Of a stretch of 64,000 nucleotides of DNA, positions 10,101 through 61,900 are shown piece after piece. The stretch is from Nymphaea colorata (taxonomy: Eukaryota > Streptophyta > Magnoliopsida > Nymphaeales > Nymphaeaceae). The stretch lies in contig NC_045141.1 of assembly GCF_008831285.2 (NCBI RefSeq), positions 19,836,848 to 19,900,847 on the forward strand, given 5' to 3'. The notes under the pieces were generated by a model, which saw only the letters and a list, made by a program, of their open reading frames with translations, had not been told where the DNA came from and searched no databases. Position 1 is the stretch's first letter. The number at the start of each line of letters is the position of its first letter. A program made the position numbers and the translations under genes.

Positions 10101-11861
10101 GCATTTTTTTGGAATAAAACGTGTTTTCTGTTGCACTGGTTTTGAGTACATGCCTAAACCATAGAGCCACAGCTATAACCTTGATAACTCGAAGATCGCT
10201 AAGGAACCTGGGTCATGTCTATCCCCAGTAAGGGATAGGTTTACAAATCAACTCCAATCTCATGCTAAAAGAAAAATCAATTTTTCATTCCAGACAATAT
10301 TTAAGAGCAGAATCAGATCCTCACAACAGCTCAGATAAATTAAACCATGAAACAAGGGATACAATGATGAATGACCCACCCAAATATCCAGGCAGGTGTG
10401 AAAGGTAGAATGAAGCACCAGCATCAGGGTGAAATCCAATTTGGGTTTCTGGGGTGGCAAACACCTGTACCAGACAATACACAACATAAACAGTGTTAAG
10501 CCATGTATACATTGGAGCAAAGTAATTGAACAACTTAACTTCTTGAGACCATCACGAAGGCTATACAGCCAAATAGAAAACACAGATTCATGTTAAATAC
10601 CCTGTGCTGCAAATGACCACTCAATTATATTATCTAGCGATCTTAGAGAGCCCCAGAAATAGAATCATAGTCTCTCCAGAGTTCCAAGTCAGCATAAACA
10701 CAACTCAACAAACTATGTGATGACGCATGGCAGTCTAAAGAACTAGATAACAGGCATAATTATAAATAACAAAAGAGAAATAACTGTATGCTAGACAAAC
10801 ATGTTTCCAATAAGAGCTCACAATGTACATTATTTATTGTGAATCACCTCATGTGAAATTGCCTTTGCCTTCTCTCTTTATCATTACAATTGATAATATT
10901 AAGGGATTACAAACATGTTAAACATCACAGATTCACAAGAGATAAGCTGCATTAACAATTGATGACTAACTTGTTTTCTCTCTCCACCTGACTTCCAGGA
11001 TGGGATGTGTCCTGCACACTTAATTAAATGCCACAAAGCAAATAACCCTGTGCATAAATAATAAGAGTGCACAACACTCAGATCACTACACAGTTTTCAC
11101 CACCTACCATTTAATGAAAGGACCATGCTTGCACAGGTCGATAGATATCCTCAGGAATCATAATCCCTAATCCAAGAGCTGCAGCTTTGATGTGGCTGGT
11201 TTCTCTCGGCAAGCAAACACCTAAGTTGACTACAAAAGATGGGATATCGATTGGCAGTTTCATCAAGTATGATAATTTATTAGGGCTCAGAATTGTCATA
11301 TAATCATATTTATAGCTGCTTTAATAAACCCACTCTTTTGCAATGGCAGATTGGACCGACTTTCCACCTGTTGTGAGGATGGAAACATGTTAGTTCAGCT
11401 TCACCTGGTCCCTCTATGATTTAATCATGGACAGTCCACTTTTTATCTGTAGTTTTTTTATTGTGACATCACATGTTGGGGACCCTTTTGTGTAATAGAA
11501 GTTATTTTCATTCAGGAAAAGGGAAAAAAAAAAACTATTTCATGAGCAACTAAATTTTAAAAAAGGATCTGTCACATAGAATCTAAGTCACACTGGTGCG
11601 CCAAATATGGTGGCGCACCCGCGTCGGTGCGGATGCGGGTGCGGTCGACTCGGTTAAACCAAATCGGGTGTTGCTAACATCACCCGTTGTTCTTTTCTCT
11701 TGTTTTTTTTCATTTTTTTCCTTCTCCAGTCTTTCCCTCTTCTCTCTCCCCTACCCTAATTTATTTAATAAAACTTTGAATTTTGTATGAGATTAAGGTA
11801 ACCTTAATAAAAAACAAGTTTAAAAATATAGACAAATAAAATTACTTATATAACAGATAAC

Positions 11862-11925
<64 letters not shown>

Positions 11926-14900
11926 TCTCTCGCCGCATTAATACCAAATTTTTTTGGAACTTGCCGCATCCCGCACCCCGCGCGCATGCGGCATAGCATA
12001 GAATCACCACATAGACCACCATATGCGAGAACCTATGTCACCTGAATGCGGGGTGCCGGTGCGGCACATCTCAAAAAAATTAGGTGCGGCAGTGCGGTGA
12101 AGATATTTTATTAATATTAATATTAATATTATTATTATTATTAATTTTTCGTAGAAAATGAATAACACAATTAAAATTATACATTTTTATGATAGTGGGA
12201 AAAAATCAAAAAAGAAATGTTTGAAAAAAAGGCAAACAGATCGTTTTATGAAAGCCACCATTCTTTAGTCCTGTATCGTTTTTTTTTTAAAGAGTAAAGA
12301 GAACATATAATATATCTATAGATGTATTCAATTAGATGCAACGGCCGACGGGGATTTGATTTTGTGGATTTTTAATCTGGTTTTATCCCGAAATCAGATC
12401 CAGATCCAAACCATACACGCAGTTGGTTTGGATTTGGTTTCGACTCGGAACTTGATCCAACTCCCCTGGGTGCGGTTTGGGTGCGAGCCTTATCATCGGG
12501 TGCGGATTGGGTGCGCACCTGGAGCGCACCAACCCGCACCCGCAACGCGTCGGTGCGGGTGCGAGCTCCTGGGAAACGCACCCAGGTGACATTGGCGAGA
12601 ACAATGCAAATTTACTGTGGGACAGATGTTCAAAAAGTCTAAGTCAACAGTGTTAAGATGACAACAAAAATGGCCAGGACTCGAGAATATGGGCTTCAAT
12701 ACAACATGCCACTAAAAGAGTTGTAACCCACCATCGCCAAAACAACAATCAACAAGAACCACACCAATCTGTTTTGAGGAAGAGACAATATATTCAAAAC
12801 ATTTAAAGGATAGCAGACCGTTTTGTCTGTCGCCACTCGAAACATTCCAGGGAGAGAAATTCCTGCACCACCTCCCATGGTAATTCCATCTAATAGAGCC
12901 ACCTGCCCAAGAGGAAAAAAAGATCCATTAATAAATAGTACACTATCATGTGAGAAACAATACACGAGCAGTTGTCAGCCATAAGAAGATGAAAGCATCG
13001 CATGAAATGATGAAACACACCAATAAAGCAGCAAAAATAACACTTCTGTCTATTTTTAAGATCATTCTTCTTTTGTTTAGTTTTTGTCAATTGTGAATAC
13101 AAACTAATACGGACAATATTATTTCACAGAAGTTGGGCTAGTATCCAAGAAATTAAAAAATGAGGCCAATTTTGGGATTATGGCTAAAAAATGTGCCCCT
13201 AAATGAGAATTTCCCCCTCTCTATTCCATATTTTTATCTGTATTCTTTTCTAATTTTACCTTTCTAATTGAATGATCATTCAGAAGACCTTTTCCATATT
13301 CAATAAGATAAACCCATACTCCAAACATTCTTCACATGTTTCGACAAATTTACATTTGACAACAGAGAAGCACCAGTAAGCCAAAGAATGGAATCAAAGG
13401 GTAAATTTGGACTCCCTTGGCATCTCAGACCATATCCAAAGAGACAACAATAAAAACAAGCATCAAATCTCATCTGGTTCTGATCTGTACCATGGGCACT
13501 TGGCTAACCCATCCTTATTATGCATAGTTGAAATAAAGGAATTAGCTTCTAGTCAATTTTTTCCAATAAGAAACCCAGCCTCTCTTATCTACACAGCCTT
13601 GTAGATAAATGAAACAACAAAAATAAAGAAACAAACGTCACCAAGAGAAGTAACCTATCACATTTTTATCAACAGTTCTCTTACCATGTGTCTCTACTCT
13701 CTTGGTAGACACATTTCATATGGAGAACACCAAATGGTTATCTGTACCAATATATAACCAGCATAATCATATAGATCAGATTTGAAACCCTTCACTACAA
13801 ATTTGCAAAATCTAGCATCACTGAGAAAAGAAATTGATGAAAGAGGGTAAGAAAATATGGAACAAATTTAACGCAATACACCGCACTGCCATGTTCATTC
13901 AAAGAAAAAGACAAAAAACAGCCATAGTAAAAGTATCATCAAACATATAAAGGTAGTTTTTTTTATCAATATCAATAATTTATTTTCTGTTAATAACTCA
14001 AAATTTCCTTGGTTTGATCACAGTTTTGAATGTGCTATTTGTCATACTATTGCTACTGAGTAGAACTCCTATGCTTTCATGTGTGTGTGTGTGTGTGTGT
14101 GTGTCAGTTTGCATGTAAGTGGGTCTTTTTCCAATATATGGAATGAAAAGTAAGTCGTGTGGCTTAAGGCAACAACAAGCATGCTCAATGCTAAATAATG
14201 GATATAAATTAGCCAACTCATAATCACTTCCCTGTGGTCTCATTGAACATCAAATGAATTTATGAGCAATATAGAAAAAATATTACTCACATGTGGCTTC
14301 ATGTACGTTCCCAGCAGGTAGATGAAACTATATAACTTATCAAAGAACTCCTTACAGGCATCAAATTTTCCTACACAATATAAGCACGAGTTTGAAACAT
14401 TGTGATGGCAAGAAAGGGCAAGAGAACATCCAAATCAGGCCAAGCACAATTAGATAATAAGGTAGGTTAATACCTTAAAATTTCCAAATGGACATAAAAT
14501 GAAAGTACGAAAACATCATTCAAAAGGAAAAGAAAAGGAGAAAAAGGAAACAGGATTAAATAGAGTATTGCTTTCAAAAAAGTGGTGCAAAAACAAATAG
14601 ATTTCTTGAATACAAATTCCATTTTCTTGCTTCCTTGGTGGTTCGGATAAATAGCTTGGAGACCAAAACATAGAGGTCCAGCAAGCTTCCTCTATCATCT
14701 ATTTTGATGAATAGGTATAGTTTCTCAATTTAGAGAAGTAAGTTCTCTTGCTAAAGTTGGAATTTTTTATGGTAAAATATAGACATTAAAGTTTAATTTA
14801 TTTTATATCAGGAGCAGTTAAGGTTTTTAAATTTTGGTAGTTTTTGGTAAAAAAATATGCATGTTATCCATAGAATATGCCCTCACACTATGGTAAAATA

Positions 14901-17398
14901 TAGACATTAAAGTTTAATTTATTTTATAGCAGGAGCAGTTAAGGTTTTTAAATTTTGGTAGTTTTTGGTAAAAAAATATGCATGTTATCCATAGAATATG
15001 CCCTCACACTATCGTATTACCAATCTTTTATGCAATTCATGGTCATTTGAATGTGAAGTTGTAATTTCATATTCCAACTAATTTCATTTTCTTATGCAAT
15101 GTATTGGTCCATCTAAACAAATTGATACTTTGTCTTACATATCTTATTACAAAAGCAGGTCATACAAGTCAAGATATGCATTTTAAAGCAGGCTCATCAG
15201 TTTAACTTTAGATTTCTAAGTGTATGCACTTGTTGAGCAGTTGTATTCTTAACTGGTATTGATCTGATGCACTTTGATCCTATAACACTTGCCAAGCCAC
15301 ATAATAAGTCTACGTGATATTTTGTAAAGCCCTTACGAGAAAATTGTATGCCCGAACAATGTCAGAGAAAAAAAGTTATTATCAATTTCTTTACAAGGGA
15401 AAATATGGAATAAAACAATGTCATTGAAGAAATAGTTCAAAGGTACTGACTTAAACAAATCATGCTGACATATATGAATACTAAGATACCAAAGTTTTAA
15501 AAAAGTAAACATTGTGGCAAGATCATAGTAATATTGAAAATAAGTGATCAGGTGTCATTCAAAATTGGTTCTATTTTCAGAGTCTTGAATCTTGATATTT
15601 AGTTTCAAAAACAATGTCATTGAAGAAATAGTTCAAAAGTACTGACTTAAACAAATCATGGTGAACTTAAGCACATATATGAATACTCAGATATGAAAGT
15701 TTTAAAAAAGTAAACATTGTGGCAAGATCATAGTAATACTGAAAATAAATGATCAGATGTCATTTAAAATTGGCTCTATTTTCAGAGTCTTGGATTTTGA
15801 TATTTAGTTTCAAAAACACTATTAGCACTTACTAATATACTTGTAGCCATGGATGGCTTTTAAAATTCATAGTTTGAATAAAATTATTTCAATTACTGTT
15901 TCCTCCAGTATATGAGATACAGTTACTAGAATCTCCCATAAGTACTCCCAGTAGCATGATTTGCAAGAATGAACTCCATAGTTACCCAAACAGGGGAGGA
16001 GTGGGGAAACACATTTAACAATTGACATTAGTCAGTGATGTGAAACTTGATCCTCAACGGCTCCCTTCTTAATGGTTTTAGTTAATTTCTAAGACATTTC
16101 TTCCATGTTTCTACATTTTATATTAGTATATGTCATGTTTTCTTGTTACCATCATAAGGGTTTAAACTTGCTTCTTTGTTGTGATTGGAATTCACTTTCT
16201 AAATTATAACGCTGTTCTATAGTTGTTCCTAACGTGCTTTCTACTTATTGCCACGTCCTTTACTTCACTACTACAACCATTTGACACAGGCCTCAGAGCA
16301 TCTTTCACTTACACCCCCATTTGACTTCTCGTATCACATCCCATGCCCATTTCTACATTCTTGATGCTTGAAACCCACGGCCTCAAAACAAATCTGTGGA
16401 GTAGCCCATTTAAAAATCTCTTGCTACAAAGCAAGAAACAGAAATAGATACTATCGTGACATTTAAAATTAAGCATGACCCAGAGGAAGGAAATGTGCGG
16501 TATAAAATCAATATTTGCCCCAGAATCTTATGTGGGCAATAGTTTAAGAAAGATGAAGAATACCTTCACCCACTAATCGATAAAGGCTGACAATATCTCC
16601 ACCAGCAGAAAATGCCCTCCCATTGCCCTTCATATACGCAAGAAACAAGCGGATCAATACACGAAACCACGCTTCCAATGTAATTACCATCTGTTTAGAT
16701 GAGAACTAACTACGAAAACAAGGCCCCAAGCGTTGAAGATTCCAACAGTCGAAAGCAAGTACCAACCACGATAATAACATCTGTTAAACGCAAGTAAAGG
16801 GGCCAAATCGAGACATGACTGATAAGCATTGAGGCCCCAGAAAGAGAGCCAAGCATACCTTCATCACAACGAAACCAATATCAGGGTTGTCTTCCCAGGC
16901 CTCGTACAGCTTTTTGAGCCTAACACCCTGAATAAGACGAACCAAAACTGTAATGAACATCATAGACATGTCCAAAAATATTTTCATAAGCACAATTTCT
17001 TTCGTCCATAGAACCAAAGAAATAAGAATGTAACAGCGAACTGCATGATTGTAAGCACGATCCATCACCATTCACAAAGGCCAGAGAAACATAAAAAAAT
17101 TCTCTCGGTAGTATATACCATGTTAGTAGTTAGGGCGTTGAGAGACGAAGGCCTATTGAGAACTGCTGTCCGAGAATAAGATCTTCCCTCAACCAAGACC
17201 TACCATTGAGAATAGAAATAGATGCCTATAAATGTTCAGAGTAGAATGTTAGAGAGAGCAAGAGAGAGAGAGTGTGTGTGTGTGTACTTGGTCATCGAGA
17301 TTTCCATCCTTGGCTTGATTGGGAGGAGAAGAGAGGCGCCTGCATTGAGAGAAGAGAGGAGGTATCCTCCTCCTTGTTGAGGCAATGCACCTTTGCAT
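7163..17398 (-). CDS. 3-hydroxyisobutyryl-CoA hydrolase-like protein, mitochondrial (HIBCH/CHY family)
   Basis: Fourteen exons on the minus strand join in phase to 401 aa: 17288-17398, 17119-17199, 16859-16927, 16564-16627, 14291-14370, 12819-12902, 10380-10464, 8900-8985, 8643-8764, 7974-8034, 7741-7839, 7504-7605, 7388-7429 and 7163-7282. The crotonase fold is clear: an oxyanion-hole segment GRAFSAGGDIV, GITMGGGAG, then PETQIGFHPDAGASFYLSHL. Glu169 and Asp177 are eight residues apart, like the catalytic Glu/Asp pair of human HIBCH. The enzyme family releases 3-hydroxyisobutyrate from its CoA ester in valine breakdown. The N-terminus (MQRCIASTRRRIPPLFSQCR) is rich in Arg and Ser and lacks acidic residues, as in mitochondrial presequences. 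The C-terminus (REAFV) has no peroxisomal signal. The start is the first in-frame ATG. Exon 6 has a weak donor (GTCTGC). Introns 6 and 7 carry repeats. Confidence 0.96.
9055..9110. repeat. Exact 28-bp tandem duplication
   Basis: A 28-base unit containing GACTGCCCCTTTGGCTACAG occurs twice head to tail inside intron 7 of the hydrolase gene. The two copies look identical, so the event is recent. Confidence 0.9.
9810..10140 (+). repeat. Dispersed A-rich repeat, copy 1 (in hydrolase intron 7)
   Basis: About 330 bases are strongly A-rich on one strand for the first two thirds. They share a long diverged match, in the opposite orientation, with 48840-49110. Shared landmarks in order are GTTTTTCTC, a run of A, TCTGGTAA, AAAATGTAAAAAAC, CCTTTTTTC and AAAACGTG. 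I see no coding capacity and no clear terminal repeats or target duplication. It may be a non-autonomous transposable element. Confidence 0.7.
11583..11996 (+). mobile_element. hAT-like non-autonomous element A (414 bp, TSD CATAGAAT)
   Basis: Perfect 8-base direct repeats CATAGAAT flank this element at 11575-11582 and 11997-12004. It starts CTAAGTCACACTGGTGCG and its other end reads CTATGCCGCATGCG on the opposite strand, giving short imperfect CTAAG/CTATG termini. The subterminal region iterates GTGCGG and GCGGATGCGGGTGCGG. Toward the right end is a (TATG)n(TA)n microsatellite followed by the tail module CTCTCGCCGC, a run of T, then GCACCCC. It lies in intron 6 of the hydrolase gene. The 8-base duplication and CTAAG-type ends fit hAT elements. 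No transposase is encoded. Confidence 0.8.
11868..11925. repeat. (TATG)n(TA)n microsatellite
   Basis: A tetranucleotide TATG tract passes directly into a TA tract inside hAT-like element A. It lies immediately before the conserved tail module. Confidence 0.9.
12033..12594 (-). mobile_element. hAT-like non-autonomous element B (562 bp, TSD GCGAGAAC)
   Basis: Perfect 8-base duplications GCGAGAAC lie at 12025-12032 and 12595-12602. The terminal inverted repeats are CTATGTCACCTG on the left and CAATGTCACCTG read inward from the right, with 11 of 12 bases matching. The right-hand subterminal region is dense in GGTGCGGGTGCG-type repeats. The tail module (GGTGCCGGTGCGGCACATCT and its neighbours) lies near the left end, followed by a run of ATT/TAT triplets. 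It sits 36 bases from element A, in opposite orientation, in the same hydrolase intron. No protein is encoded. Confidence 0.88.
14083..14104. repeat. (GT)n microsatellite
   Basis: A pure GT run of about 11 units lies in intron 5 of the hydrolase gene. Confidence 0.85.
14768..15009. repeat. 121-bp tandem duplication, nearly perfect
   Basis: Two adjacent 121-base copies (14768-14888 and 14889-15009) differ by one substitution that I can see (ATATCAGG versus ATAGCAGG). They lie in intron 4 of the hydrolase gene. The near identity marks a recent duplication. Confidence 0.95.
15413..15815. repeat. About 196-bp tandem duplication, diverged
   Basis: Two adjacent copies begin AAACAATGTCATTGAAGAAA at 15413 and 15609. 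They differ by scattered substitutions and a small insertion near 15660. This is the second tandem duplication in hydrolase intron 4, older than the 121-base one. Confidence 0.9.
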
Positions 17399-36715: not shown

Positions 36716-36875
36716 TTACTGTGCCGCTTCTGTGCACCACTGGTTCACCTTCGGCGATAGAACGATAATGGGCGACAAGAGAGGGATAGGAGCCTTGTAT
36801 TCCGCTGCAAATTTAGGGTGATTTAGCTGCAAGGGAGGCGGAGCCCGCTTCTGCAATCTGCTTGGCGGCCGTTGC
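36716..36875 (-). pseudogene. Coding-like fragment related to 39.25-39.54 kb
   Basis: The minus strand encodes RLQKRAPPPLQL followed by APIPLLSP. These match RLQKQAPETLQL and IPIPLLSP in the fragment at 39.26-39.40 kb, and the DNA aligns along about 110 bases. The frame is broken into by the 109-base duplication just upstream. The parent gene is unknown to me. Confidence 0.4.
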
Positions 36876-37061
36876 TGGGCATCGGAAACCCTGACTCCGT
36901 TGTCGACAGCACTCTTCGCTGCCTCCGGCATCTCATCGATTGAAGAGCTAAACCCGCTTCTGCAATCTGCTTGGCGGCCGTTGCTGGACATCGGAAACCC
37001 TGCCTCCGTTGGCGACGGCACTCTTGGCTGCCTCCGGCATCTGATCGATTGAAGAGTTAAA
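36844..37061. repeat. 109-bp tandem duplication
   Basis: Two adjacent copies begin CCCGCTTCTGCAATCTGCTT at 36844 and 36953. They differ at several positions, for example GACTCCG versus GCCTCCG. The period is not a multiple of three, so any reading frame through it shifts between copies. Confidence 0.93.
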
Positions 37062-49200: not shown

Positions 49201-52200
49201 ACTTTCTGCTCCATCCAGTAAACGTTTCCATCTATTTCTTGCTTTGAACCAAAGATATGTGGAAAACTGATCAACTTTAGATCTGATACTCAGCAAACTC
49301 GATTTGAATTCCAGCCTGTATTATAGTTCAAAACCTACATTTGAAATCCTTTAACAATCATAGTTATTATAAATTTGTTGAGCAGTATGTCGTCTTTATG
49401 CCTAACATATGGACCCTATTCATTTAAACTAAACCAATTTGTGCCCCAACATATTGGATATCTTCCTTCACAAGCTGTAGTTTCATCCTTTACATGTTCA
49501 TCCTCACTCCTCAGTATCTTTATGCAATTCAACAAAATTTCGTCAATAACTGAAATTTAATAGCTATCATATTCATACAAATTTGGCCTCCAACATGCAG
49601 CTACCCTTTGTCAAGACTTGTTATTATGTCCTAGAACCTTTCAGCAATGTCCACCTCCTAAGTTATCACCTTCTCCAGTGTCAGTTCATCTCCATGCAAC
49701 ATATTCAGGTGTTGAGGACTGAAGACTTGAAACGGGAAAAGATTGTACAACAGCAAATATGATGGCATTAGCATGTACACTTTTACTTTACCGGAGTTGG
49801 ATTGCATGTCCAAAAAGGTTGCTTAACAAAACCTGTAACTTATATTTATTTTGTCATATTTTCTTCTCCTCCTTAGTGGCATCAACCTTTTGCTGTAATA
49901 ATAGCTTTCGACACCTAAAATTTCCATTCTATTTCCACCATCTTCATGACAACCAAATTTTTTGAAGGTTCTACACTTCATACAGCATCTACCATATAAG
50001 TTTAAAATAAACCAACTACATGAACAACAGTTCAAAAAAAAAAAAAAACTGGATTAAAGGACTGATTTGTTATGAAGATCATTTGACTTAAGTGGACCTT
50101 AACGCATACAAAGAAAGTCAATATGCGCATTAAGATGCAAGCTTGGTCAAGTTTATGACAACCAGGAAATATGAGGCCCGTGAGAGCCACTGTAATACAG
50201 CTATCTACAACACAAACATGCAGAGCGTAGGTGTGAGTGCAGATGCAGACGCAGGATTTTGAAAAAAACTGGGTGCCAGAGCAATGAGTATATATATATA
50301 TACACACACACAAACATTATTAACAATTAACAAGCTGTGGTTCTATCGATGATTCACTGAGAGAAAAAATTGTTCACCCAAGTTATCTCGAATCTGGTGT
50401 GGCAATTTTTTGAAAAGCCCATTTTACTTAAAGTCCGCCATCCAACTAATACAAACAGATGGCTGACAGGCTGGTACACCAAAAGTAACTTTGTAAAATC
50501 AAATGCTACCGGTCACTCACCTTTTCTGAAAAAATTACATATGAGGTGGCAACATATTTGAGCTGTTTGATCAATTGGATATAAATATGCACACGTACAT
50601 CCATGCATGCATACATATGTACATGTATACAAACACGTATACAAGCACACATGTACATCAAGAGAATGGGACAGTATAAATACATAAGCAAAAGGTCACA
50701 ATTGCAGAATAGGAAAGTTTACTCACTTCAACAGTGTCAATAGCTTCATGTGAAGGGATGGCATGCAGGACCCTGAGTAAATCAAGAAAAATGAGAAAAA
50801 TAATTTGTAAATACAAATCCTGTCCTCATCAATAAAATAGAACATCTGATTCTCGAAAATTTCAACCAGCTCAGTGTTTTTGAAAAGTAACTATAAACAC
50901 CATGTGATTGCTGGTTTATACCTGACAACAAAATTGGAGTACTAAATCACACATTTATAAGCCATAAAATAAGCGGAAAAAGATGAAAGAAAAGGAATGG
51001 GAGACCAAAACTTGCATTGACTCCTCTGGATGACAATAGGGCTGCATGCACCATTCTGAAACATATGACAAGTTGCACATATATCCTTGCTTAGTTACAT
51101 AACTTCTTAGGACTAAAATACTGTCAAATGTTATGTTGCATATGAAAAGCATGTAACTTATAGCATGTCCAGAGCTGCTAACAAGCCATGATGGGCCATA
51201 GCCATGAATAGCTTGTCTGCCAAAATTCCAATTTAAGGGTAATTTGATGGTAACAGTTGCACCTAAGATTGTGTTTCCAGGTCAATGACCCTTGTTCCAA
51301 AGATATTCTTAATGAGGTTATTTCACAATTAGAAGACAAGTGGGTAGGTAGAATAGAGGAAAGAACAAGAGATATGAACAAGGAAAGCAATGGGAGAATG
51401 GTGCACGTGACAGCTGCCCCAAATACCTTTTATGATGGTTATTAAGCATCAGTGAGCATAATAATCTTCAGTGATGGACCACAGTAAAATGTACATAATC
51501 AACCAGTGGTGGAGCCAGAAAACTCTGTAGGGGCACTGTTACTTAAATTTCAAACTTTAAGCACTCATATGCAAAAAATTGAAAACTAATGAAGTATTTA
51601 TGTGTAATTAAAGCAAATTCTCTGGGCTGGTGTGGGTAATTTTGCCCATAGCAGCCACAACGTGGCTCAGCCACTGTAATCAACCCTACAAAGGTGATTA
51701 AAAAAAAAACAAAAAAGGACTCGTCTAAACAGATTTCACAAAACCATCTTTAAGGACATTGAAGTATATGTCATATTTGAGGTTTAGGTGTGCCCTTATG
51801 GGCCATAAAGTTATACCTTTCCTCCACTGCCCCAATAATACCTTCAGTTAATGCAACTCCACCAATCTGAAGCCCAAAAAACAGGTTATTCTAGATAAAC
51901 CACACATACACAAAGTAAGAGCACCTAGATTCAATGGGTACTGACCAGCTGTAAACTACAAAACAGCTTTCTTTGGAGGTCTATGCGCCCTGCAATTAAA
52001 GCAGCAAGTATGATTAAGTGCCCATGATATAGTTGGTAATAAATAAAGACATGACGCACCTTACCTGTTGACATAATGCTACTCGTTATAGCTTCAGCAA
52101 GTCCTAGGTTGTCTTCCCTCTTAAGCCGGGAAGTGGCAACAGGGTAGCTATCCCACATGTTAAGTCCATTACCACCAAGGAGAAAAGCATCGGGCAAATC

Positions 52201-55200
52201 AGACCTCCTGGGAAATTCTGAATGAAGTGTATCTTCTAGCATATCCTCATAATCATGAAACCTAAACAAGTAGATTGCAATCATGTTCTTTCTTTAAAAG
52301 AGACCTAGGAAAGAAGGACTTGCATTTAACTTACCAAGGACGTGGAGGAGGTGGATGTTCATCTGGAACTAAAAGTGAAGGACAAAAAAGGCCCATAGGA
52401 GGCACCTATGTTCAAAAATTATTGTGTAAAAATCCTGATTAAGAATTATCGCCCACACTACATTACAAATATTCCATCACAAAAGTATGAAAAGATAATA
52501 CACAGCGATTGTGCTAATTTCTCATTTTTTAGGTTTATGGTCCACATGTAGCATCACATATGGCACAGTGAACATGACAATTAAAGCGCTCACATGAATT
52601 GCTGGATTACCTCTGGACTTTGTTAAACACCAGAAGCTGATTCTTGGATACTTGTTAAAAATTTTATCACACTTGGAAGGTGTTTAATAGCATGAAACTT
52701 TTCAGGGCGAAACATTTTATGACATTTCATGTTGTATAACATTAATAATTTCTCAAGAAAAGTACTTGGAGCACAAAGCTCCAACTGAAAATAAAGGACA
52801 TACAAATATCCTTATAAAAAGGAGAAATTTACCCTGAAGTTTTTTTCTGCATGTGATGGCAACTTGTGCAGAGTCTAAAAATTTCACTCAAGAAAGTACA
52901 GACAAAATTTCACCCAGCAACAAACATCCCCTTAGGTTCTATTGTCTTTCATGATTGAGAACATATATTAGAACTATAAACCTTAAAAACATCAAATCTT
53001 TGTGTCACTTCCTGTCCCTGTACAGGTTCTGTCAAATTTCATGTCCATGTCACATAGGCAGAGGCACTGTGCCCATGTCGACATGGCCAGACATTGGTTC
53101 AGGTTTGGACTCCCTCCAGGCAGTCAATTTCTTGTTAGATGTAGTTAATGCTCATGGCTAGAGTTATCCAAAGTTGGACTTTGGCCAACCTTGACTGCTA
53201 ACATTTTAGGAATAAATTAAAATAATTTACTAAAACAATGAAAGGTAAAAGTTAAAGTCTAAAGAGGAAACAAAAATCTAAGGAGGAATCAAGTTTGACC
53301 TTCTTCATCTGTTTGTGCATGGACAACAGCCACAGGTAGACAATGTTGTTCTCCATCTCAGGTGACTGGTTATGTCACATAGGTATAGGTATGGGTGCCA
53401 TTATGGGTTTGGGCGCAGAGAACTTTCAAAAAATTTGAGTACGGAAACACAACCGTGTATACACACACACACACACATGTGTGTGTGTGTGTGTGTGTGT
53501 ATGTGTGTGTGTGTGTGTGTGTGTGAACCAACCACAGGTATCACTTAAGGGACCTCAGAGTCAAAATGTTCCTTCCCCAGACTTCTTGTTGCACAACTCA
53601 AGCAAATTCGGAAAAAGAATATTGAGAACTTCCTTATGAAGGACTGCATAGGGGTGGGACAAATGACAAGAGAAAAGAAATAACAAAACATCGACAATAA
53701 TGTTGCATGAAAGTGTATAGTGTAAGGAGTAAATTACCGCCTTAACACAGAAAAGGTGACACTTTACAACAACATCCCTCCTGACATGCAATTCAATAAG
53801 CACAAAAATTAAATGACATATTGCATAGAAGACAACTCCCAAGTCACTTTTCAAGAAAGAGAAACGTACATTGACAGCAAACAACCTCAGCTTGTGAGCT
53901 TCAGCTGGCTTTCCAGTCTCAAAAGAATGAACCAGGGCCACACTGTCAAGCTCCCCTTCCTATTCAAAAGTATTCCAGAAATCATCCATAAAGAAAGTTG
54001 AAAAGAGAAAGAATTTAAAACATGTCCATTTCAAATATCCACAAGATAAAAAATAACTGCTTCAAAAGGTGCTCACAACAATTCTACAATAAGATTCTTT
54101 TAGCCTCTCTAGCATAAGCATGTCAGCTGGTTTTGACAAAGGGTCAGTATTTATTGCAGGCCAGGTTTGATGATGACGTTGAATCCAAAAAAGGCATCGT
54201 GATATGTCCTACAAGGAAAAATCACATCAATCATCAAAGTATGAACAAAAGAAGGAAAGAGATATTTAAGGAAAACAAGAAGAGAATGTATCAAGCCAAA
54301 CAAATACACTAGAGAAGAAAGAAGGGACTATCTATAGCTTGAAATGGAGTATATACTACAGAAGATATTTATCTAGTCTAATATCAACAATTCATCTAAA
54401 CTGAGATCAATAGCAAAAACCAGTTCACAATCTTGACTATACCATTTGGTTTATGATTAAAGGAGGTTGACAAGAAGAAAGAAAGGGAAAAGTAGAAGAG
54501 AAAAGGAGTTTTCAAAACCTTTTTTTCCATCTAAGGCCTAAGAATACCAGCCTAGGTGACCTTACATAGGTACCAATGTTCTCAGTATCAGTAAGCATCA
54601 GTTCATATAGACCTGTAGGCTTGTGGCACTAGGCTTATGGCACTCCACAAAGATAGACAAGTCAGCCTATGACACTCCATGAAGATAGACCTATCAGCTG
54701 ATGGCACTGCTTCCACCATGCTGAGGCATGGTGGTGCCAGTTGTTGCAGTAAGGCCACAACTGCAATGGCCAGCAAAGATGATTATATTTTCTATAAGAT
54801 CCAAACCTTACAATTGGGGTCGATGAGGTTGAAGACAAGATCGGAAAATGCAGAGAGCTTGTAGGACAGAGAGGGGAGGTTGGAAACAAGCAAAATAGAG
54901 GATTTAGAAAGCTCACTAGGGCAATTGTAAGGTTTTCTGAGATCCATCAGAGCTGTGAAATGGGGGCAGATGAAGGATCTTGAGCGGCAGTATGGAGTTC
55001 AACAGAAGGTTGGAGTTTAAGGCTTTCAGCAGATGCAAATTTCCATCTAAGTCACCAGGGTGCGCGGTGCGCCTGTTTTGAAGCTGCACCCGCGTTGACG
55101 CGACACAAGTGCGACCCAGATTTGCACCCAGCAATGTCAAACGTGAGTCGGGTGCGGTCAGCCGCACCCGACTAAAATTGTCATTTTTAGACGCGCACCC

Positions 55201-55839
55201 GACTCGCATCCGACTAAAATTGTCATTTTTCGACACGCACCCGACTCGCATCAAACGCGAGTCGGGTGCGGTCAAAAGTGAGTCGGTTTATTTCGGACCA
55301 ATTTTGGGGTTTTTTTTTGTTTTTATTTTTAACAAAATCGATAGGGCACAACTCGAGACCTCACCCCTTTGCCGCCGCTCTCTCTCTCTCTCTCCTGCGA
55401 TCATCTCTTCCACCGGCAGCATTCTCTCCGTGCGACCGGCATCTGCTGCTTTCTCCGATCTCTACCTCCACCGACAACATCAAATTAGTTCAGGTCTTTG
55501 TCACATGGGTACTGCTGTAAAGGCAGCGTACCCGTACTGGCCAGGTACGACACTGGTGCTGGTATTGGTACTGTCCTGGGTACCTCTTGGGTACCGGTCA
55601 AACAGTACCGGGTACGGTCAACGTACCCAGGACTGTATCCGTCCAATTTAAGACTCGATCAAAGTTGACTGAGTCCTTTCTTATCCAAAATTTATGATTT
55701 CAGTTTTGTTCTTTACACCATTTACACTCAGGAAACACATACAAAGCTGTGTTTTCATATTTTTTTCAATAGTTTCTTCTTTAGAAACTATAAATTTTGA
55801 ATCATGAATGCGCTATTTTCTTTGAATTCTTATTTTATG

Positions 55840-55912
<73 letters not shown>

Positions 55913-58900
55913 CCCCTGTACCCAAGTTTTTTGAAAATAGGCCGAACCACCGTACCGGCACCCGTACCCGTACCTATGTGCCATAGGTTCAGGTTTGAGC
56001 TACGTTTCAAGGGTTTATACCAAATTTTTCTCCCGCCACCATTTTCATTTATGCTTTTTGCCGGAATGATCTAACCAATGTTGTAAAAAGCGTATCGTAA
56101 GCCGTATCGGTATGGCTCTAAGATACACCGTATCGTAAAATATCGTAACGTATTGTAACTGTATTGTTTTTTTTTTAAATAAATAAAAAAGAAAAAGAAA
56201 AAAATTCGAAAAATTAATTAAAAAATCAGTAAAAATCAAGAATAATATGTTCTTCACAAAAACATGTTTTACAGAATAATAGACTTATTATTGCTATAAA
56301 GTTACGGTTCATCATTCGTAAACATCAAAATTCATAACAATATCAATCTAGAAAGCACAAGTCAACAATTACATAATTTATATCATAATTTCATAACCAT
56401 AGATTTATAATCTTCATCATATTCACTTTCATCTTCATCTCCATCTTCTTCTTTTTCATCTTCATGATAAAAAAAAACCTTTCCTCCTAATGGGAATCAA
56501 CCACCCACGCACAAATCCATGGTTTAATAGATGATTTCATGGTGAAAATTGATGATTTCCCTCCAAGGCGGTACGATCTCTAGGTTAAAAATGAAGAAGG
56601 GGTGGGTTTTCATAATTGAGCCCCTTTTTTTGAAATCAGCCTGTATCGTACGATACGGGCACGATACACCCTCATTTACGATACAGAGGGTGTATCGTAT
56701 CGTATTTTGTAAACGATACGTATAACACTGGATCTAACCATTTGTTTTTCTTTTTTTCCCCTTATTTTCTCTTCTCATGTTTCGTCTTCTTCGTCAACCC
56801 TCTTTCCTCCTTCTTCGTCCCTCTTTTTCTGTTTCATTTTGTAATCGTCCAATATCAGTGGCAATTCATTCGATCATCTGAAGTCTGGTTTTATTTTTTC
56901 AGACTTGGTTATTCTATTAATTATTGTATGCATCCCTTTTCACAAATCATAAGCTTCTACTACATGAAGCCCACACACTTTGCAGCAATAATGTTCGTTA
57001 GCTCTTAAAATGTGTTAATGAAAATCGGCACTTGCTTGATGGCTACTTTGGCTTCTGTGAAGTGAGAAACATATATGTGTTAGATAACTTAAATTGTTAA
57101 TGCAGGGTCATCATTGGTCTTCTTCTCCTGGTTTCAGTTATGCATGGTTTCTTTGAAAGTGGAACTGGAACACAACTTTGATTGATGATGTAATATGTAT
57201 TGATGTATGAATTATGAAGTATGACTGTATGAACTGTGATTCTGTGAACTCAAAACTAGAGTATATTTCTTGTTATATGTTGAATTGATGCTTGATAATG
57301 ATTTCATGATTAGCAAATTGCAATTTTGATCTTGTTATTTAATAATTTTGTGATTTATAGATAATTTTTTATCATATATATTATATATATGTTATTATTA
57401 TTATAAATTAATAATAATAATAAATACTCTCGCCGCACCACCGCACCTAAATTTTTTGAGATGTGCCGCACCGGCACCCGCACCCGCACCCAGTTTGGTA
57501 TTCTTGTTAAAAGCATTCGCACTGATAACGCTCTTGAGTTCAAGGCATCTACCTTAATGAAGTTTTACTCCGATAATGACATTTCTCATCAGTTTACCTG
57601 TCCCCATACCTCCCAACAAAATGGCGTAGCTGAGCTAAAACATCGCCAACTTTTAAATATGGCTTGTTCCCTAATGCTTCATAATAATTTACCTGCATAC
57701 TTTTGGGGAGATGTCATCCTCACTGCCTGTTACTTGACCAATCGTTTACCATCCTCCTCCATTGACAACAAGGTTCTCATTAAACTTGTGAACCCACAAC
57801 AACCATTGTTTTTTGTGGCTCCCAAAATATTTGGTTGCACATGCTTTGTTCACATATTTGGACTCACACGTGATAAATTGGGTGCCCAAGCCATTAAGTG
57901 TATCTTTATAGGCTACTCCAAAAACCATAAAGGCTACAAATGCTTTGATCATTTGACTCAAAAGGAGTATATCAGTGCGGATGTCACATTTTTTGAGTCT
58001 AAACCTTATTATAGCTCCTCTCCTATCTCTACTGAGATGTTACCGTCGCCAGACCCACTACCTATTCCTCTCATTCCTTTGGAGTCATTTCCTTTTGAAT
58101 CTCCTTCTAAAGAATCTTCGACTGTAGTGTCCAAGTTTCGTGATCCTCCGCTGATCTACACACATCGACAGGACCCCTCTCATGATCCTTCACCAAGCGC
58201 AAGCGCTTCTCAGGAGGCAAGCGACAATGTACTCTGCATTCGCAAAGGCAAGCGACAATGTACTCTGCATTCTATATCACATTTTGTGTCTACTGACGGT
58301 GTTGGTAAAAGTATGCAACAGTTTATTCAAGCTCTTATTACTCATACGGTTCCTACGTGTCACCAGCATGCTTTATTAGATACCCAATGGAGACAGACTA
58401 TGCAAGATGAGATGGATGCATTAGTTCAGCCGACAGCGAGGCACTTGGGAACTTGTTGATCCTCCTCCTGATTGTAACATTGTTGGCTCTAAGTGGGTAT
58501 TCACTATTCATAGTGAAATATGATTATGATGGGTCTATGGAACGATACAAAGCTCGGTTGGTTGCTAAGGGCTACACGTAGACCTACGGAGTGGATTTCT
58601 TTGAGACCTTCTCTTTGGTTGCTCGGTTGAGAACTATTCGTCTTATTATTATTTATGTGGCTGTACACCATGACTGATACATGTATCAGCTTGATATCAA
58701 AAACGCCTTTTTGTACGGTGATCTCGATGAGACTGTCTATATGCAACAACCACCAGAGTTTGAACGACAGGGAGAGTGGAAAAATGTGCAAATTGAAGAA
58801 AGCTATTTATAGACTCAAGCAGATTCTTCATGCGTGGTTTCACAAGTTCTCCGAGGTAGTCTCAAAGTGTGGCTTTGCGAGATCTCCTCTTGATCATTCT

Positions 58901-61900
58901 CTGTTTATCAAAAAGACTTCCTGGGGTATCATCGTTCTAGTGGTTTATGTTGATGATATTATCCTCCCAGGTGACTCCGATCAAGAAATTGCTAATGCAA
59001 AGTTGTTTCTTCAAAAACATTTTGTGATGAAAGATCTTGGTCCACTATGGTATTTCTTGGGAATAGAGGTTGCTCGAAATAGAGATGGTGTCATTCTCTC
59101 TCAATGGAAGTATGTTCTTGATTTATTGCAGGACACCGGGATGCTAGGAGCTAAATCGACTAATCTACCTATGAATTCATGCATACATCTTCATGATCAC
59201 CAAACAGAATTAGTGGATTCTCGATCATATAGATACCTTATTGAATCTCTATGTTGCTGTGATAAGACCAGACATTAGCTTTGCAGTGGGGAAGGTAAGT
59301 CAATTTATGGAAAACCCCAGGAAAGTTCATTGGGATGTTGCTTTGATGGTGGTCAAATATCTGAAATCGTCTCCTGGCAAACGCCTTTTGTTCACAAAAA
59401 ACAAGACCCTAAAAGTGGAAGCCTATAGTGATGCTGACTATGCTGGTTCAGTCAAAGACAGGAAATCTACCACATGATTCTGTGTATTTGTGGGAGGCAA
59501 CCTTATATCGTGGAAAAACAAAAAACAAAGTGTGGTATCAAGATCTAGTGCAGAATCCGAATACAAAGCTATGACTCAAACTGCAGCAAAACTAACTTGG
59601 GCTAGATCCATGCTATCTAGCCTAAGTGTGTCGATTTTGCTTCCCATGAAGATGTATTGTGACAATCAAGCAGCCACATACATTGCAAACAATCCAGTTT
59701 TCCATGAGAGAACTAAACATATTGAAGTGGACTGCCATTACATTCGGGATCTCGTTCAAGGAGGAACCATTGCCACTATTCATGTTCCTTCAGAAGATCA
59801 AGCTGCAGATATCTCCACCAAAGCTCTCCCTATTGGTGATTTTTCTAGATGTTGTGACAAACTGAGCATGTTTAATATGTATGCTCCAGCTTGAGGGGGA
59901 GTGTTGAATCAGAAGAGTTTATGTTTCTAGGTGGCTCTTTGTAATATTAAAGAGTTACAAGATCTCTTTAATATTTTTTTTATTTCTTTATAATGGAGAT
60001 TAGGGTTAGTGAATAATGAAGTTTTTCTTTCTCAAGTCTTACGGCTGCTACTCTCACTCTCTCTCCCTCTCCACATCTCACAACCTACCATCTCCAAACC
60101 TCATGGCTGCAACAGAACCAATTAAATAGGATCAGAATCAACCCAAGTCCAATACAGTCACATCCTTGGATACAACTCATCAATGATGAACTGGATGGTG
60201 GAACAAGTACTCCCCTAAATAGATTAAGGGGATGCCTAGAAGTAGCAGTATTTGGTGTTCTACTCAGAGAAGAATCCTCCATTCTTTCCACTCACTTTCT
60301 CCTCATGCATAAGATAACATAATGGGACGCTTGGATTTATCGATAAAGATAAACTGACAGGAAAGGCAAAGAGGGATAATGATAACCATATGTTAACCAG
60401 AAGCAATGCAATAGGTTCATAACTTCATACCTCTCCACCAAAAGGAAGTGTCACACACGAAGTAGGCAAAGCCACTCCATCCTGATCACCACAACCAAAA
60501 AAGTTGTGAGTCATTTTTTACCATTGCACTTTTTTGTTGATTGAAAAAGAAAACAATTTAACATGTAAACACGTGCAAAAAAAGCTGTTATCAGCAGCTA
60601 GAAGAAAACAAAAGCTCAAAGGAGCAATAGAACTATTTCGGAGAGACCGCTATTTTTTTTATACCTCAATGCAGATAATTGATGTAACTTGAGCACCCAA
60701 ACTTACAATACAAGCAGTAGAAAGTCCATTTCCAAAGGCAGCAGCAAGACCTTCCTGTTGTAGGGATTGAAAACTGTTTATAAGCTCAATTTTGACTTCA
60801 AATAATGTAGCCATGTGCATTAATCAACTCAAACAATGACAAGAAAACAAAGAAGATATGTCCTAGGAGACATGATTGGATCAAGATACAATTGATTACT
60901 CACATGAAGAGATACTAGCCTGATCACTAACTTCGTTTACATGATACAAGTCAACAATCCCATCAGGAAGGAGCATTTAACAGATCTTTCTTACTTTTTC
61001 TTCCGTAAACTTAAATTATGAAAATTAAAACAGACAAGGATAAACGGCAAAAAAAAAGCATTTTTTGGTTTTTTCTCTTTTTCTGACTGGTAAGATGAGG
61101 TTAGGTAGATCCCTAGCAGATATACAAAAGACATTCCCAGAGGCATCAAACGATAGACCTCCTTTAACTTCAAGGTCTCAAGAAGTCAACTGCCTAACAA
61201 GAAGGACAGAGCTTTCATTGGTCTTTCCTTTGCCACTGGAGTTTCTGAACCCAGCAGAGGTTTTAATATCTAACAAGTAATCATTTAGGAAAAGCTTATC
61301 CATTCCACAGAAAAAGAGACTTCTCTCATAAAATTTGGAGCACAAGGTTTTGAGTATATAGGCCTAATTACTTAATTAGATAAATGATGAATTTTTTGCA
61401 GTAAAGTTGAACTGTGGTATGAAGTATGAACACACTGAATAACCTCTTACTTGGTTGGAGACATTTCTTCCTTGATTAGGAGAAAGAGAGAGAGAGAGAG
61501 AGAGATAGAGAGAAGCTTATCCATTGGCAGAAAATGAGTTCTCTCATAAAATTTGGAGCATAAAGTTTTGCGTACATAGGCCTACATGACTTAATTAGAT
61601 AAAATTCATTTTTGCAGTAAATTGAACTGTGGTAGGAAGATGCTCAATAACCTCTAATTGGTGGACAGAGAGAGAATACAATTGAACTACTTATTGGTGT
61701 TTCCAGTCCATATTCAATATCTACTAGAGAAAAATATCTCAGGGACAGAAAAGCATCTGTATTTCAAAGATAAAGAACCATATATGAGAAACAGCAAAAA
61801 GGCAAGACAACTCTTCTCTTATAGGCTCGTTCTGATTCTTCTTCTACAGTTTGGGTAGAAGACTTGTAATTTGCAGCATAGTCATCTCAACCAAGTGCAC

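Follow-up and report, generated by a model that had tools for sequence, protein, structure and literature searches.

Mobile elements that carry a microsatellite inside them are known from animals. The mini-me element is reportedly tied to the genesis of microsatellites, to judge by the title of the 2001 work of Wilder and Hollocher; lepidopteran miniature inverted-repeat transposable elements (MITEs) are said to have hitchhiking (GTCY)n microsatellites (by title, Coates 2011), and a Xenopus MITE reportedly carries tandem repeats (by title, Hikosaka and Kawahara 2004). The subject of this text is a family of short elements of Nymphaea colorata with a simple repeat near one end. Six copies, complete or partial, lie in a 64,000-nucleotide stretch of contig NC_045141.1 (NCBI RefSeq assembly GCF_008831285.2, positions 19,836,848 to 19,900,847 of the forward strand), which is called the window below.

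The Drosophila element DINE-1 is abundant and lacks significant open reading frames (ORFs). According to the available part of its description, its core is conserved and contains (TA)4, a GTCY-rich microsatellite varies in length but not in place, the inverted repeats are subterminal, there is a 3′ stem–loop, and the element inserts at TT with a 2-bp target-site duplication (TSD) (PMC2374699). As with mini-me and DINE-1, the N. colorata family is a mobile element with an internal microsatellite at a fixed site, the length of which varies between copies; unlike DINE-1, it has 8-bp TSDs and inverted repeats at its very ends. The lepidopteran and Xenopus MITEs, both cited in the portion of the PMC9659126 reference list that was available, also have a tandem repeat riding inside, as compared by titles, but their hosts are animals and their repeat units are different. 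The Mutator-like plant MITEs Micron, rSaTar2 and gSaTar (PMC5907723) and the pineapple Ac-mMITE (PMC8449440) target microsatellites and are flanked by the repeats, and their copies outside microsatellites have TSDs of 9–10 bp where the available parts of these papers report them. The family described here shares with them a plant host, a similar size and a tight (TA)n association; their repeat, however, is the flanking target, whereas here it is internal, and the TSD is 8 bp. The Brassica nigra elements BniHAT-1 and BniHAT-2 (about 0.67 kb), assigned to hAT by their TSD, are similar in description, without sequence comparison, in having terminal inverted repeats (TIRs) and an 8-bp TSD; unlike here, no internal microsatellite is mentioned for them in the available part of PMC7385995. 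The initial annotation of the window knew of no named family with this structure, and no published description of the family was found in the literature searched. The kind itself is not new, since mobile elements with internal microsatellites are known from Drosophila, Lepidoptera and Xenopus; the plant case with 8-bp TSDs looks new.

The N. colorata elements are best described, with a probability of roughly 0.85, as a family of short, apparently non-coding MITEs with TIRs, 8-bp TSDs and a built-in proto-microsatellite about 75 bp from the 3′ end. In the three complete window copies (A, B and D), the repeat lies inside the element, directly 5′ of a tail of about 75 bp. The microsatellite is an internal passenger of the element, with TSDs beyond both head and tail. 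The copies in the window are as follows.

Copy A, 11583-11996, + strand: complete element of 414 bp; exact 8-bp TSD CATAGAAT at 11575-11582 and 11997-12004; (TATG)n(TA)n repeat at 11862-11924, tail at 11925-11996; ends CTAAGTCACACTGG and CTATGCCGCATGCG, imperfect inverted repeats.
Copy B, 12033-12594, − strand (inverted): complete element of 562 bp; exact 8-bp TSD GCGAGAAC at 12025-12032 and 12595-12602; tail at 12033-12103, internal AAT-type repeat at 12104-12145; ends CAATGTCACCTGGGTGCG and CTATGTCACCTGAATGCG, imperfect inverted repeats.
Copy C, 53371-53525, − strand: tail with a TIR-like end at 53371-53442; CA/TG repeat at 53461-53525.
Copy D, 55496-55986, + strand: complete element of 491 bp inside copy F; exact 8-bp TSD GTTCAGGT at 55488-55495 and 55987-55994; (TA)n at 55841-55912, tail at 55913-55986; ends CTTTGTCACATGGGT and CTATGGCACATAGGT, imperfect inverted repeats.
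Copy E, 50222-50311, − strand: degenerate tail at about 50222-50283; TA/CA repeat at 50284-50311.
Copy F, 55047-57491, + strand: head from 55047 (CTAAGTCACCAGGGTGCG); AAT-type repeat at about 57370-57423; tail to 57491.
D-type TIRs: CTTTGTCACATGGGTAC... and ...GTACCTATGTGACATAG.
End motif of the element group: CTATGTCACAYRGG.

A simple repeat adjoins a related tail at all six places, as the initial annotation had noticed, with copy E the weak case (71% identity of its tail to that of D over 62 bp, E=2e-4). The motif CCGGCACCCGCACCC has 11 matches with at most three mismatches, against 0.07 expected. Copy F is interrupted by two later insertions, copy D and an unrelated MITE at 56076-56730, and is truncated at its 3′ side, the 3′ TIR being lost where a Copia-like fragment starts. 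Of the 12 repeat loci in the window's list, six adjoin tails and another, a CT run, lies in the head of copy F.

The six places had been chosen for having repeats and are a biased sample for adjacency, so this was re-tested with a repeat-free tail query throughout the species' own 407.8-Mb assembly of 783 contigs. The tail-only query gave 40 scored places among 499 first-look candidates. Of these 40 places, 35 have a perfect di- to tetranucleotide tract of 10 nt or longer within the 60 bp preceding the tail; 22 reach 16 nt and 15 reach 20 nt. In the control, the 60 bp that follow the element, the corresponding counts are 1, 0 and 0. A census was also made of an exact 22-bp D-type tail core, TACCCAAGTTTTTTGAAAATRG. 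This core has 77 exact matches in the genome, all of which were retrieved, and its reversed control has none; a TIR-like end is found within 80 nt downstream in 68 of the 77. Within the 70 bp before the core, 71 copies contain a repeat of 10 nt or more, 39 one of at least 16 nt and 29 one of at least 20 nt, compared with 4, 2 and 1 in the control interval 40–110 nt after the core, the first 10–15 nt of which is still tail (39/77 versus 2/77 at 16 nt, Fisher p 2e-12). Tracts of these three lengths are reached by 5.9%, 1.4% and 1.0% of all 70-mers of the window.

These counts bear on the possibility that GC-rich modules and simple repeats adjoin by chance in AT-rich DNA. Five window repeat loci (14080, 19064, 23335, 33330 and 61480) have no tail in the 30–40 bp shown on each side, which speaks for chance, but an excess of 71/77 over 4/77 at 10 nt and of 39/77 over 2/77 at 16 nt, where the background is 1.4% of window 70-mers, leaves chance a negligible share. 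Chance adjacency was rejected on the tail-only set and the exact-core census. The initial annotation had proposed a comparison of adjacency with controls, and adjacency exceeds the control in both of these sets; the B/F type was covered in part. It had also described the tail as always paired with a repeat. The pairing stands for the 71 cores, but ‘always’ is too strong, because 6 of the 77 have less than 10 nt of repeat upstream.

The whole-element query with copy D gave 40 scored places of 936 first-look candidates, and all 40 were retrieved. A head-only query, without repeat or tail, gave 40 scored places of 469 candidates, and 38 of 40 places are common to both lists in our own comparison of the outputs; the D-type sample is thus free of selection by the repeat. 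Scored places of the D and tail-only queries together are found on each of contigs C1–C15. Most D-query alignments begin and end at the predicted element ends. With the best of five end offsets, 19 of the 40 D-type copies have an exact 8-bp TSD and nine match at 7/8, 28 in total, of which two need an offset of 2 and two (L022 and L024) represent one segmental duplicate. The latter, at C3:7814737 and C3:7836479, lie 22 kb apart and have identical heads and the same imperfect TSD; they are a segmental duplication, not two insertions.

For the tail-only query, 30 loci were retrieved for a scan of heads and TSDs, about 8 of which also belong to the D set. A loose scan (TIR with at most three mismatches) found a TIR-like head and a TSD of at least 7/8 within 1.48 kb in 22 of them, and a stricter pattern found both in 15, with element lengths of 342–1328 bp. 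The query reached relatives of 1.0–1.33 kb as well as short forms of 342–374 bp; all of these share the tail and have similar TIRs and TSDs of 8 bp. Instead of being a module of its own, as had been supposed, the tail forms the 3′ end of a TIR element whose 8-bp TSDs lie outside head and tail. Since heads and TSDs enclose the tail, the idea of a stand-alone module was rejected. The proposal of a mobile element family that keeps the position of its repeat is borne out by the TIRs, the TSDs and the genome-wide copies. TIRs with TSDs of fixed length, short size (414–562 bp in the complete window copies), dispersal and an apparent absence of coding capacity, which was judged by eye on three longer relatives, are the features of a MITE.

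In the longer relatives L080, L084, L085, L087 and L091, a second upstream copy of a unit of about 45 bp (TATGTTATTCTG..TTTTTGATATATATGTGTG-like), which has a small proto-tract of its own, was noticed by eye, and some of them have a GTACGGCCGTAC palindrome adjoining the main tract. Locus L103 (G000:C5:12434744-12436631; 1,888 bp) has inverted tail modules at both ends, each with a repeat, and the 8-mers outside its two ends differ.

A repeat beside a conserved terminal module would also arise if the MITE inserted into existing (TA)n microsatellites, the tract beside the tail being the target site. Such families are reported from several plants, namely Micron, SaTar and the pineapple Ac-mMITE, in the available parts of PMC5907723 and PMC8449440, where their TSDs, if present, are 9 or 10 bp. 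Here the 8-bp TSDs lie beyond head and tail. Among 40 unique D-type copies, 27 have a repeat of at least 16 nt inside, within 60 bp upstream of the tail, compared with 1 of 40 that has one in the left outer flank and 2 of 40 in the right. The outer flanks are repeat-poor, which indicates that the repeat is carried by the element and not targeted. The repeat unit, in addition, follows the subfamily. Insertion into microsatellites is therefore very improbable, and this candidate was rejected on the position of the TSDs and the repeat-poor outer flanks.

The repeat unit was said to differ between copies, and it does so by subfamily. The D type has mainly (TA)n; in longer relatives the repeat is (TA)n(TG)n, and in the B/F type it is mostly (AAT)n. 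One longer relative type has a short ACATATATATGTGTGTGTGTACGG, that is, two adjacent tracts. A TG tract of at least 25 nt is found in 4 of the 77 core copies. Three of these also have TA tracts of 24–40 nt (TA/TG 32/37 in L164, 40/35 in L143 and 24/25 in L189), and the fourth is the D-type copy L170 (15/25). The B/F type has a core sequence of its own, with 65 exact matches in the genome; on contigs C1–C5, where the lists of cores and of (AAT)3A are both complete, (AAT)3A lies 12–42 nt upstream of 22 of 29 cores, including those of window copies B and F. Since the unit follows the subfamily, the repeat is inherited together with the element.

The constant position of the tract in subfamilies with different units (TA, TA+TG, AAT) would also be expected if the tract had a function in the element, as a spacer rich in AT or as an unwinding site between transposase-binding repeats, and were selected in source copies while its unit drifts. 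The same pattern is accounted for by a neutral tract that undergoes slippage and is passed on with the element. The 6 of 77 tails without even 10 nt of repeat speak against a functional tract, but they may be dead copies and do not decide the matter. Overall, a functional role of the tract appears improbable.

The length of the tract behaves differently in different subfamilies. Of 26 copies of one long subfamily, 18 have a TA tract of 8 nt and 20 a TG tract of 11 nt; the short stretch after the core has a mean pairwise divergence of 0.105 in this subfamily. The TA tract ranges from 4 to 62 nt in 12 D-type copies (mean pairwise divergence 0.165) and from 8 to 42 nt in the 15 copies of a second long subfamily (0.129). 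Closely related D-type copies can have tracts of very different length, such as 62 versus 20 nt at 2% divergence. Tract length compared with identity to copy D is uninformative (rho 0.20, p 0.21). The best reading is a proto-microsatellite that remains short in one subfamily; in others it is hypervariable.

The mechanism envisaged begins with a transposase supplied in trans, most likely of hAT type, which would move the element by cut and paste. Every insertion would thereby deposit a proto-microsatellite at a new site; with a short simple repeat carried near one end, each jump can plant a microsatellite. Beyond a short length, the tract would expand, contract and switch its unit by replication slippage and point mutation, and these processes could yield the TA, TATG, CA/TG and AAT variants seen at one position. 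The assignment of the putative transposase to hAT is suggested by the 8-bp TSD, the duplication length of hAT elements, which matches at 7/8 or better in 28 of the 40 D-type copies and exactly in 19.

Several observations weigh against the MITE reading or parts of it. Copy C has no head on its right side, and neither a head nor a TSD was found for copy E. Two regular-expression scans detected TSDs in no more than 9 and 27 of 63 copies, respectively; these counts were left out of the main tally because the patterns miss ends that alignment detects. Seven of the 29 B/F-type cores on C1–C5 have no (AAT)3A in the 12–42 nt interval. In 43 D-type copies, the longest pure tract is shorter the more a copy diverges from the majority sequence (rho -0.37, p 0.014; no correction for relatedness, and with the L022/L024 duplicate and a copy lacking a detected tail in the set). 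Longer tracts thus occur in the less diverged copies, and a short seed growing with age is not what the D type shows. This speaks for long tracts in young D-type copies and decay in old ones, and long tracts may already have been present in the source copies.

The other points concern the transposase. The hAT terminal consensus is YARNG. All 27 tail ends begin with CTATG, which departs from this consensus at base 2; the head ends of the 27 copies are CTTTG in 14, CTATG in eight and others in five, in a scan that itself demanded C...GT. The target preference of hAT elements is nTnnnnAn; both bases are matched in only 9 of 27 TSDs, and the preference is consequently not counted as support. The analysis found no coding element that has these ends. 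In the ORFs of three relatives of 1.0–1.33 kb, no transposase was recognised by eye, with no family search made, and the same applies to transposase ORFs in two 5-kb stretches (L101 and L102). Copies of the hAT dimerisation domain abound in the genome, with 150 places scored of 1113 candidates. None of these 150 places is within 26 kb of any of the 142 tail cores (77 + 65), the nearest core being 26,055 bp away, so these ends have no associated partner among them.

The departure at base 2 would fit a Mutator-like (MULE) derivative instead of a hAT element. TSDs of 8–11 bp are reported for MULEs in the available part of PMC5907723, and the published plant MITEs linked to microsatellites are MULE-related, as far as the accessible text of PMC8449440 and PMC5907723 goes. 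The TSDs here, however, are 8 bp compared with the usual 9–10, and a ninth base agrees in only 6 of 27 copies on the left and 3 of 27 on the right, about chance level. A MULE origin is accordingly regarded as unlikely, and the hAT assignment is retained as the most likely one.

The region around copy F contains further elements. The MITE at 56076-56730, nested in F and unrelated to the family, has GTATCG-rich ends with TIRs CAATGTTGTAAAA and CAGTGTTATACG and an exact 8-bp TSD, GATCTAAC, at 56068-56075 and 56731-56738. Its ends agree with the hAT terminal consensus. Directly after the truncated F, broken pieces of a Copia-like polyprotein (integrase, reverse transcriptase and RNase H-like ORFs, identified by eye) occupy 57492-59894. 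Tandem duplications of two units are located at 14768-15016 (121 bp, 98% matches), 15412-15818 (about 205 bp, 90% matches) and 36844-37061 (109 bp, 93% matches).

A tentative extension, which we consider possible but doubtful, is that the family is a natural replicated experiment on the birth of microsatellites. Near-identical proto-tracts whose initial length is known (TA of 8 nt, TG of 11 nt, longer TA, AAT) would have been placed at many sites and would become unstable only above about 12–16 nt. In its bolder form, offered with the same reserve, the tract would be a spacer needed by the transposition complex, and selection would keep it in source copies while the repeat unit is replaced.

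Half of the repeat loci listed for the window (6 of 12) are attributable to this element group. Markers built on such repeats would be prone to multi-locus amplification. With the same starting tract at many sites, the length at which short repeats become unstable would be readable from one genome. The family shows that, in a plant transposon family with 8-bp TSDs, microsatellites can spread as an internal passenger and not as an insertion target.

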